Source: Amycolatopsis alba DSM 44262
GTDB taxonomy: Bacteria; Actinomycetota; Actinomycetes; Mycobacteriales; Pseudonocardiaceae
Direction of reading: 5' to 3'
DNA: 64,000 nt
Assembly (NCBI RefSeq): GCF_000384215.1
Contig: NZ_KB913032.1
Location: forward strand, 5,633,602 to 5,697,601
Shown here in pieces: positions 30,743 to 56,959 of the stretch. Position 1 is the stretch's first letter. Each line of letters begins with the position of its first letter. The position numbers and the translations under genes are program-made. Under the pieces are notes generated by a model that was not told where the DNA came from, made no database searches, and worked only from the letters and a program-made list of their open reading frames with translations.

Positions 30743-31301
30743 GGCTGGCCGCCTCCCAAGGCGTCGGCGCGACCGGTAGCACTCCGTTCGGGTGGTTCGG
30801 ACGTGAACCAGTTAACGAAGTGGTCCGGGACCGCGATGGTCAGTCGAGAGGGAACGATCCTGCCCGCGAAACGGGGGCAGGCCTCGTAGAGCCGCACTGC
30901 ACTGGGCGGCCGATGCGCTTGTGTGTCTCATGTGTACTGCCGCGCGCCGGGTCCCGCCAGACCGTTGTGGTGGATGGCAGGCGGGGCGCACGTATTACTT
31001 CCGGGTTCGCCGGTCTTATGACGATAGTGTGAAATCGCTGTTATCGACATACGTCGGTTGGTCGGGGTGGGAAATGCCACGCGGGCGTTGACTTCAAACA
31101 TCATCTGCCCACTGGCTGGAACGACATGTCCACTGAGTGGGGCACCAGCGCGCTGATCAGCGTAAACGATCGCTCACGTCGCTCGGTAGTGTGACCTGGA
31201 TCGCGCGGAAGAGTGAGTTTCACCGGTGTCACGGTGACCCGAGGTGACCGCCGGATCGCCCGAACGGCAGAGCGAACTGCCCGGTTTGAGAGACTCGGCC
31301 G
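30743..31301. other. 559-bp divergent spacer without a recognisable gene
   Basis: Lies between the starts of gltB and the YigZ gene and must hold both promoters. It is more AT-rich than its surroundings around 31000–31060. A 12-bp palindrome CGCTGATCAGCG is at 31151–31162, and an imperfect inverted repeat around TCACCGGTGTCACGGTGA at 31222–31239. GTGAACCAGTTAACGAAG near 30802 loosely resembles a GlnR-type half-site pattern, which would fit gltB, but the match is weak. No convincing reading frame or RNA gene was seen. Confidence 0.5.
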
Positions 31302-31931
31302 ATGGCGGATCGTTATCTCACCGTGGCGGGTGCCGGCGTCAACGAGATCGAAATACGGCGCTCCCGGTTCCTCTGCGCGCTCGCCCCGGTCACTTCGGAA
31401 GAGGCCGCCCGTGAGGTGATCGCCGCCAGGAAGAAGGCCGATCCGGCGGCCCGGCACCACTGCCACGCGTTCGTGCTGGGCGCCGACGGCCGTGCCCAGC
31501 GCTCCAGTGACGACGGCGAGCCCGCGGGCACGGCGGGCATCCCGATGCTCGAGGTGCTCCGCCGCCGCGAGCTCACCGACACCGTCGCGGTGGTGACCCG
31601 GTACTTCGGCGGGGTGCTTCTCGGCGCCGGAGGCCTGATCCGCGCGTACGGACAGGCCGTCTCGGAGGCCGTCGACGCCATCGGGGTGCGCGAGTACCGG
31701 CGGCTGCGGCTCGTGGAGGTCGTCGTCGACTACGACCGGGCCGGACGGTTGGAGAACGACATCCGCTCGTCGCCGTACCTGCTGCACGCGACGCGGTTCG
31801 AGGACGTTGCGCATTTCGACGTCGGGCTCGCGCCGGACCAGGGCGACACCTTCCACGCCTGGCTGGCGGACCTGACCGGCGGGGAGGCCCTCACCGAAGA
31901 GATCGGCGAGACCTGGCTCCCCACCCCGTGA
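31302..31931 (+). CDS. YigZ/IMPACT-family protein
   Basis: A 209-residue protein with an N-terminal IMPACT domain (RHHCHAFVLG, then SSDDGEPAGTAGIPML and VTRYFGGVLLGAGGLIRAYGQAV, the family core) and a C-terminal DUF1949 ferredoxin-like domain. Homologues are linked to translation under stress; the molecular role in bacteria is poorly known. Its TGA lies inside the first unit of the 21-bp repeat array. Confidence 0.93.
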   Translation: MADRYLTVAGAGVNEIEIRRSRFLCALAPVTSEEAAREVIAARKKADPAARHHCHAFVLGADGRAQRSSDDGEPAGTAGIPMLEVLRRRELTDTVAVVTRYFGGVLLGAGGLIRAYGQAVSEAVDAIGVREYRRLRLVEVVVDYDRAGRLENDIRSSPYLLHATRFEDVAHFDVGLAPDQGDTFHAWLADLTGGEALTEEIGETWLPTP

Positions 31932-32052
31932 TCAGACAGCGAACTCGCGTGATCAGAGGCGGAACACGCGTGATTGAACGGCGAACACGGTGTTCGCCGT
32001 CTGATCACGCGAGTTCCGTGTCCAATCACGCGAGTTCGCCGTCTGATCACGG
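31926..32052. repeat. inverted array of six 21-bp units (3 + 3)
   Basis: Three direct units at 31926–31946, 31947–31967 and 31968–31988, one base, then three units in opposite orientation at 31990–32010, 32011–32031 and 32032–32052. Each unit is 21 bp: CGTGATCAGA-type 5' half and CGGCGAACTC-type 3' half. The whole is a 63-bp imperfect inverted repeat. It fills the spacer between two convergent genes, and the outermost units supply both stop codons (TGA in CCGTGATCA). Related arrays are at 50552–50657 and 56747–56959. Confidence 0.9.
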
Positions 32053-32613
32053 GTGAGGGCGGGCGCGCCACTCCGCCAGGGTGATGGCGTACTCGACCTC
32101 GCCCTCCTCGGTTCCGGGGATCGGGTTGTCGAAGTGCTCGTGGAAGGTCCGGACGTGGCGCATCCCGATCTTCTCCATCACCCGCCGGGAGCCCAGGTTC
32201 ACCGCCATGGTCGCCGCCCAGATCCGCTCGGCCCCGAATTCGGTGAAACCCTTCTCCAGGAGCGCGAGCGACCCTTCGGTCGCATACCCCTTGCCCCAGG
32301 AGGACCGGTTCAGCCGGTATCCCAGTTCGGGATCGTCCGTGTGATGACCGCGCAGCGGACGGAAATGGAACCACCCCAGGAAAGCGCCGCCGGATTTCTC
32401 GATCGCCGCCCAGAACCCGTAACCGGGGAAACGCTCGTAGTAGCCGAGAAAGGCGGGAAGGTCACGGTTTTCGATCTCCGCCCGATCGGCGGGTTCGCCA
32501 CCGTTGAGATAGCGCATGACTTCGGGGTCGTCGTAGAGCGCGAACAGGTCGTCGACGTCGTCGCCGGTGAACTGCCGCAGCAGGAGCCGCTCGGTCTCCA
32601 GAAAGACACGCAT
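32047..32613 (-). CDS. GNAT-family N-acetyltransferase (RimJ/RimL-like)
   Basis: A 188-residue acetyltransferase of the Acetyltransf_3 type: TERLLLRQFTGDDVDDLFALY at the start, LGYRLNRSSWGKGYATEGSLALL as the acetyl-CoA binding region, and AVNLGSRRVMEKIGM near the end. It may acetylate ribosomal protein or small amines; substrate not evident. Its stop codon is part of the adjoining repeat array. Confidence 0.92.
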   Translation of the reverse strand: MRVFLETERLLLRQFTGDDVDDLFALYDDPEVMRYLNGGEPADRAEIENRDLPAFLGYYERFPGYGFWAAIEKSGGAFLGWFHFRPLRGHHTDDPELGYRLNRSSWGKGYATEGSLALLEKGFTEFGAERIWAATMAVNLGSRRVMEKIGMRHVRTFHEHFDNPIPGTEEGEVEYAITLAEWRARPHP

Positions 32614-32653
32614 CGGCGAAGCGTGACGCTCCGGGGCTGTCCGGGCAACCTGT

Positions 32654-32923
32654 TTACGCGGCCACCTCGGGGCTGAGGAGGCCCCCCAAGGCCACCTCTC
32701 CGGCCGCCGTGAGCAGGGCGGGAACGCGTTCGCCCCAGTGGCCGCCCCTGGCGGGCGCCACCAGGCCGAGATGGGCGAGGCGATGCGCGGTGTGCTGGTC
32801 GCAGCAGGCGAGACCGTCGACGAACAGATCCGGCTCGCAGCTGCAGCTGATCTCGGCGTGGCCCTCGGCCACGGCTCTCAGGGTGGCCCGCTCACGATGG
32901 TTCAGCTCTGTCCGAACGTCCAT
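32654..32923 (-). CDS. small conserved hypothetical protein with a cysteine cluster
   Basis: An 89-residue protein from ATG 32923, fixed by AGGAGG 6 nt upstream; a longer frame to 33022 lacks such a site. MDVRTELNHRERATLRAVAEG is followed by CSCEPDLFVDGLACCDQ and then a winged-helix-like tail (AHRLAHLGLVAPA, LLTAAGEVAL). The four cysteines (C-x-C, then CC) could bind a metal. Function unknown. Confidence 0.75.
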   Translation of the reverse strand: MDVRTELNHRERATLRAVAEGHAEISCSCEPDLFVDGLACCDQHTAHRLAHLGLVAPARGGHWGERVPALLTAAGEVALGGLLSPEVAA

Positions 32924-33054
32924 GGCGCGCCTCCTTTCTGTTCCGCTCCGTACAGTCGAACCCATACCCCCGACAGTTTCCGTCTCCTCCGATGCGAAGT
33001 CTCGGATTTCGGGCGGACTCAAGGGTGGCGTGTCGCGTATTCAGGGGTGTCCAC

Positions 33055-50551: not shown

Positions 50552-50657
50552 TCAGGTGAGACGGGCGATCTCGCGTGATCAGGCGACGTTCACCGAGTTC
50601 GCCGTCCGATCACGTGAGTTCCGTTTCTGATCACGCGAGTCACGTCTTCGCTCACCT
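50552..50657. repeat. inverted array of 21-bp units (2 + 3)
   Basis: Direct units at 50552–50572 (degenerate) and 50573–50593 (GCGTGATCAGG-type), one base, then inverted units at 50595–50615, 50616–50636 and 50637–50657 (last one degenerate). Same unit and same one-base centre as the array at 31926–32052. Located in the spacer between the vanW 3' end and the MFS start. Confidence 0.85.
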
Positions 50658-56746: not shown

Positions 56747-56959
56747 ACGTGCCCAGCCCCCGCACTCACGTGATCAGAGCCGTGACTCACGTGATCAGAC
56801 CCGGAACTCACGTGACCAGTGGGACGACACACGTGACTGAATGAACGACACGCGTGATTGGACGGACGCCACGCGGTGGGACTCGGCGGTGGCCGAGTGT
56901 CGTCCGTCCAGTCACGAGTGTCGTCCGTCTGATCACACGTGCCGTCCACTCGGTCACGC
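56747..56959. repeat. inverted array of 21-bp units (6 + 3)
   Basis: Six direct units in register (starts 56747, 56768, 56789, 56810, 56831, 56852), a degenerate 24-bp centre (56873–56896), then three inverted units (starts 56897, 56918, 56939). Units read ACGTGATCAGAC-type with CTC/CAC ends; the period of exactly 21 bp is kept across all of them. It fills most of the 313-bp spacer between the PHP gene and the chitosanase gene, which converge. Confidence 0.9.

Follow-up and report, generated by a model that had tools for sequence, protein, structure and literature searches.

A REP-like family of 21-bp repeat arrays at gene 3′ ends in Amycolatopsis alba, and unrelated elements at the same gap in related genomes

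The inverted array of six 21-bp units at positions 31926-32052 of the window (the whole 64,000-nucleotide stretch of the Amycolatopsis alba DSM 44262 genome that was analyzed) is interpreted here, with moderate confidence, as a member of a REP/BIME-like, lineage-specific family of 3′-end elements. The members of this family would probably serve as bidirectional terminators or barriers, a function judged from sequence, and their symmetry may be maintained mainly by copying at the DNA level. The 21-bp units have been duplicated in tandem, and most arrays contain inverted copies as well. The arrays sit at gene 3′ ends, chiefly between convergent genes, and the stop codon may come from the array itself. 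In related genomes, the gap of one gene pair is occupied by elements from families that are unrelated to each other.

The array was delineated by sequence comparison and folding. It is 127 bases long (63 + 1 + 63 bp) and is not assigned to either strand; it contains three units in each direction. Units 1 to 3 are on the + strand at 31927-31947, 31948-31968 and 31969-31989, and the inverted units 4 to 6 are on the − strand at 31989-32009, 32010-32030 and 32031-32051. A single base separates the inverted arms (31925-31988 and 31990-32053), whose complementarity is 86%. Both the 21-bp register and the symmetric inversion given in a preliminary description of this DNA were thus recovered at 31926-32052. 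The two conserved halves that it assigned to each unit proved less uniform than claimed: the left half is GTGATCAGA in four of the six units and a GATT variant in the other two, and several right-half types occur genome-wide. When the whole window was searched with the unit pattern (≤2 mismatches), 10 matches were obtained, including the six units of the array; 100 shuffles of the same window gave a mean of 1.5 and a maximum of 5.

The array fills the gap between two convergent genes. On the left is the gene for a UPF0029/DUF1949 protein (31302-31931, + strand), which we take to be of the YigZ/IMPACT type, and on the right is a GNAT acetyltransferase gene (32047-32613, − strand). Both stop codons lie within the outermost units (TGA at 31929-31931 in unit 1, and TGA at 32049-32047, read on the minus strand, in unit 6). 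Two other arrays of the family are found in the window. The first (50593-50655, − strand; three inverted units detected) is between tandem genes, and the second (56749-56957, no single strand; six + and three − units detected) is between convergent genes.

RNA folding of the array at 31926-32052 gave −100.9 kcal/mol for one strand and −105.5 kcal/mol for the other (z-scores of −15 and −17), and the RNA of either strand is predicted to form a stem with more than 50 pairs and a loop of 3 nt. The motif CGTC, listed for REP/BIME sequences as an unpaired tag at one end, is present in the inverted units of this particular array, within the predicted stem. As a stable hairpin predicted on both strands and placed between convergent stop codons, the array resembles a bidirectional intrinsic terminator; it differs in having no U-tract, in its far longer stem, and in being built of dispersed repeats. 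The canonical form of an intrinsic terminator was rejected because no U-tract follows the stem, and a search of 31000-33000 of the window for terminator-like sites returned none. In 121 flanks downstream of arrays, the longest T run within 15 nt was 0 to 2, in keeping with the earlier statement that the array is not a simple terminator. The same description had set aside a CRISPR, and it did so correctly: the units abut without unique spacers. In the 2 kb of the window compared with Rfam (31000-33000), no known RNA matched above the gathering score, and there was one sub-threshold match (20.8 vs. 45 bits).

A search of the host genome for further copies, which had been proposed as a check, was positive. 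A degenerate unit pattern (≤2 mismatches) had 449 matches, compared to 12 for the reversed pattern, and the 21-bp spacing was kept. A unit profile was derived from 60 regions of the host genome (1.26 Mb), mostly picked around pattern matches; 476 units were gathered, and 74 arrays of at least two units were present (81 after the addition of further stretches). The density of arrays was taken from a 553-kb stretch, contiguous except for a 399-base hole, which was itself begun from the window and match-centered regions. Its 18 arrays correspond to 33 per Mb, or by extrapolation to approximately 320 in the 9.81-Mb chromosome. Arrays hold 2 to 12 units. Among independent matches above a high threshold, 255 of 258 same-strand neighbors within 70 bp were spaced by 21 bp, which agrees with duplication by unit in a strict register, as originally proposed. 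Both orientations occur in 62 of the 81 arrays and a single orientation in the other 19. Folding z-scores below −4 were obtained for 55 of the 62 two-orientation arrays, compared to one of the 19 one-orientation arrays (median z, −0.6); 11 of these 19 are between convergent genes. Further dispersed families of 3′-end hairpins, among them the AAGTCCGTGAAGGCCTCCTTGAGGGA and GTTGCGAAAGCCACTTTCGCAAC types, were each observed in several gaps of the 553 kb.

Genes were called with a home-made codon-usage caller. Considering gaps of at least 40 bp in the 553 kb, an array was present in 11 of 47 convergent, 7 of 129 tandem and 0 of 80 divergent gaps (Fisher test, convergent vs. the rest, p = 3e-5). 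The gap is shorter than 40 bp, with no array, in 36 of the 83 convergent pairs of this stretch. When strong stems were counted together with arrays in gaps of 30-500 bp, the respective fractions were 23/39, 26/126 and 0/69; weaker stems were present in 4 of the 69 divergent gaps, and none of 117 base-shuffled convergent gaps contained an equally strong stem. In the larger, match-centered sample, with genes called by the same home-made program, 41 of 74 arrays were convergent, 27 tandem and 6 divergent. The median distance of arrays to 3′ ends was 18.5 bp (n = 118) and that to 5′ ends was 147 bp (n = 41), using complete genes within less than 600 bp. Stop codons were located within the outer unit in 20 of 118 cases.

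The gap between the UPF0029 and GNAT genes was then compared among relatives. Eighty genomes were matched and 30 loci were fetched (that of A. alba and those of 29 relatives). The 18 close relatives (L197-L214) were counted, and the 11 more distant ones (L215-L225) were dropped because the right gene was weakly aligned or not adjacent. An element was present in all 18 close relatives: 21-bp arrays with other units in five, TTTAGTCCTC-type elements in 10 (eight plus two variants), and GTGAGTGG hairpins in three. In 17 of 19 genomes, the left gene terminates within the element, with its stop codon among the initial bases: TGA where these belong to array units or GTGAGTGG, and TAG where they belong to TTTAGTCC or one of its variants. 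A single orientation is seen in three of the five arrays in relatives (G076, G063 and G012), and the simplest hairpins at this gap have stems of only ~6 bp; the occupants are therefore not all strong palindromes. At two more array loci, some element was seen in 17 of 18 relatives each, as judged by eye from printed gaps, some of them several hundred bases long; the exception was G076 both times, empty at one locus and ambiguous at the other. The three array-bearing gaps together hold an element in 52 of 54 relative-by-locus cases, a count that was likewise made by eye and in which the relatives are not independent.

Some individual loci deserve description. In the more distant relative G046 (L215), the gene pair is close together with no obvious element, and in L216 there is an unrelated inverted repeat. 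Variant arrays (CCGTAACTCGC and CCCGGAACCCGC units) follow the left gene in L219 (G065) and L220 (G029), where the right neighbor was not found adjacent. In L208 (G060), ~1.3 kb of extra DNA, possibly an insertion sequence, is located between the left part of the GTGAGTGG element and the right gene. The GTGAGTGG element of L211 (G013) contains a run of N followed by cttccgatct, presumably the end of an Illumina adapter; this probably reflects an assembly error at a strong hairpin.

When 80 genomes of the genus were searched with an exact pattern, 18 contained it. A looser junction pattern had at least 16 matches in 16 of 26 sampled genomes of the genus (A. alba included) and at most 4, i.e. 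background, in each of 271 genomes from other genera of the family. Eighty fetched loci (493 kb; two from Amycolatopsis) contained no arrays. The type of unit (GCGTAAC vs. GCGGAAC), for which fractions cover 12 of the 22 genomes counted, was 246:18 in G044, 71:15 in G052, 6:45 in A. alba and 3:21 in G033, with a mixture of 34:43 in G023. Because this flavor goes by genome, there appears to be spread or conversion of copies from one locus to another. Copies of the TTTAGTCCTC type numbered 26 in A. alba, 354 in G034 and 2 in G063; those of the GTGAGTGG type numbered 18 in A. alba and 505 in G034. G034 and G042 gave 3 and 0, then 0 and 0, matches to two 21-bp junction patterns, and the latter genome has 309 TTTAGTCCTC-type copies beside the 354 of the former.

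We class the 21-bp family as REP-like in its behavior, but outside the REP families proper. REP/BIME sequences are described as dispersed, high-copy extragenic repeats, often clustered in both orientations, that adjoin the 3′ end of each gene where the gap is convergent and that of the upstream gene where it is tandem; the stop codon is often donated by REPs of the GTAG type (PMC3733652). The 21-bp arrays match this description in place, copy number, clustering in two orientations and stop-codon donation (PMC3733652). They are, like REPs, short, palindromic, high-copy and extragenic, and they lie downstream of genes, in convergent and tandem gaps in preference to divergent ones. The differences are the fixed, quasi-palindromic 21-bp unit in arrays of 2 to 12, and the fact that relatives carry elements of unrelated families at the corresponding gap. 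The GTAG tag is absent from the consensus of the 476 units, and a search for RAYT (Y1 transposase, PF01797), the partner of GTAG REPs, had no match in the A. alba genome, with 5 of 14 control genomes positive. No paper describing the family in Amycolatopsis was found among open-licence PMC papers, which is weak evidence of absence.

A REP-like distribution would also be expected of selfish or neutral repeats that spread and survive only where they are harmless, downstream of genes. The elements would then have no function, and the changing occupants would represent the turnover of repeat families in a tolerant site. We regard this as a real possibility, though not a probable one. It is consistent with the very different sizes of the TTTAGTCCTC and GTGAGTGG families in related genomes, with the lack of a sense-strand G:U bias in tandem arrays (see below), and with the one-orientation arrays, which are mostly unfolded and which occur also among relatives at the UPF0029/GNAT gap; restriction to 3′ ends can also follow from the purging of harmful insertions elsewhere. 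However, the presence of an element in 52 of 54 relative-by-locus cases exceeds the 23 of 39 convergent gaps of A. alba itself, with the reservations that the relatives are not independent, that one miss is unclear and that some gaps are long. Also on the opposing side, no mobilizing enzyme was found in the A. alba genome by a search limited to the Y1 transposase. In a further reading, which we consider unlikely, the 3′ ends of the genus would be a niche in which unrelated families compete and replace each other, carrying a stop codon and a terminator with them. The 21-bp array would be the modular, helix-phased member, whose symmetry and homogeneity over many loci are upheld by DNA-level copying, and would act in both directions as a DNA palindrome or a protein roadblock, not as an RNA hairpin.

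The preliminary description had offered phased protein binding on one DNA face as an explanation of the regular register, and this proposal was weakened. The 19-bp quasi-dyads (GTGATC-N7-GAACTC), which recur every two helical turns, would each be bound by a protein that acts as a roadblock or bridges the DNA at convergent ends. The 21-bp spacing in 255 of 258 neighbors is as this scheme would have it, and so are the junctions between opposite units: the commonest spacing is 19 (31 cases), followed by 18 (9 cases), with other junctions variable, and arithmetic conversion shows that these two keep the unit centers 21 or 20 bp apart. One-orientation arrays and the genome-wide change of flavor would also fit a binder acting in trans. 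On the other hand, 13 of the 18 close relatives have unrelated hairpins instead of the array between the UPF0029 and GNAT genes, and mutual information among the nine dyad position pairs of the unit gave clear coupling at positions 5/15 alone, the one pair that supports an operator dyad at the level of the unit. Overall, phased binding appears quite improbable, and we know of no protein that binds the 21-bp unit. Single units are only quasi-palindromic. They are mosaics, with left halves that are most often GTGATCAGA and right-half types that include GGCGGAAC, CGGCGAAC, CGGACGAC, ACGTGAC and ACCGCAC; coupling is strong inside the right half.

Symmetry above the level of the unit was assessed by comparing arms and by covariation. 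The likeness of arms within one array was 16.09, compared to 14.75 (sd 0.22) between arms of different arrays. Shuffling the order of units within the array left a nearly identical value (15.89, sd 0.11), so most of the arm likeness is array-level, and a position-specific pairing of units was rejected. At locus A, five orthologous arrays were aligned, drawn from the six genomes with an intact, comparable array (G063 was omitted because of an extra unit; the arrays of G037 and G052 are other or broken). The 42-pair stem had five double-changed pairs, and 97.6% of cells were paired. This number of double changes was reached in 0 of 500 shuffles, and no slid register came close, with the provisos that this alignment was also the source of the structure and that related sequences can exceed such shuffles. 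The mismatches on the + strand were eight G:U and two A:C. At locus B, which houses another hairpin family, the alignment comprised eight relatives with the hairpin (G052 and G042, with the hairpin among other sequence, were omitted; G076 has no hairpin). Both sides were changed in 12 of 26 pairs, and the cells were 31 double, two one-sided and three unpaired. One-sided changes are common in the 21-bp arrays.

Selection on an RNA stem should favor G:U over A:C mismatches. These were counted by self-alignment, with both scored alike, in a set of 81 A. alba arrays and 17 from relatives; arrays were skipped if longer than 420 bases with flanks or if they did not have both neighbors. The sense strand of 34 tandem arrays had 122 G:U and 130 A:C mismatches (p = 0.66), and an earlier count based on unit pairing had given 34 and 44. 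Given these equal counts, selection in the RNA sense is not supported in tandem arrays; locus A alone leans the other way (8 vs. 2). A stem acting after transcription, in 3′-end processing or in the stabilization of mRNA against exonucleases, is accordingly very improbable: the more than 50 pairs on both strands of the array at 31926-32052 and the covariation and G:U excess at locus A speak for the long RNA stem that had been suggested at the outset, but the sense-strand counts and the existence of one-orientation arrays (19 of 81; median z, −0.6) speak against it. On balance, the pattern of mismatches and covariation is consistent with a DNA-level repair of symmetry, e.g. by template switching, with stepwise compensation as the alternative.

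The creation and maintenance of hairpins by template switching have been described for RNA genes (PMC8794818). The multi-base compensatory change in that account (PMC8794818) resembles what was seen in the neighboring hairpin family of locus B; the account concerns RNA genes and the proposal made here concerns intergenic palindromes, and the 21-bp arrays differ in their common one-sided changes. A study of stem-loops on the 3′ side of prokaryotic genes describes an excess of them there and, for its set of bacteria, a preference for convergent gaps relative to divergent ones (PMC1590033). The 21-bp arrays have the same preference; modular 21-bp arrays or swapped occupants are not described in the available part of that source (PMC1590033).

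If the arrays are, as we prefer, REP/BIME-like elements of 3′ ends, the various occupants would share one job that is set by their position at the 3′ end and, for most, by palindromy, not by a particular sequence. They would most likely stop RNA polymerase arriving from either side without the aid of a U-tract. The symmetry of the arms and the genome-wide flavor may be kept largely by DNA-level copying (template switching in the palindrome, and spread or conversion among copies), with a lesser part for selection on RNA base pairing. The three one-orientation arrays at the UPF0029/GNAT gap slightly lowered our confidence in termination as the function. Should the hairpin be the active form, such arrays would be decaying or would work otherwise, and they would be better explained by a roadblock of protein.

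A terminator is usually regarded as a sequence that evolved where it stands. In the present case, a single convergent gap is occupied, in related genomes, by repeat families that are different and unrelated, and the stop codon is contained in the element. The turnover of occupants and the type of unit, which differs by genome over many loci, make the maintenance of hairpin symmetry, by compensatory selection or by template switching, a testable matter, and these gaps are natural replicates for the study of termination without a U-tract in high-GC bacteria.
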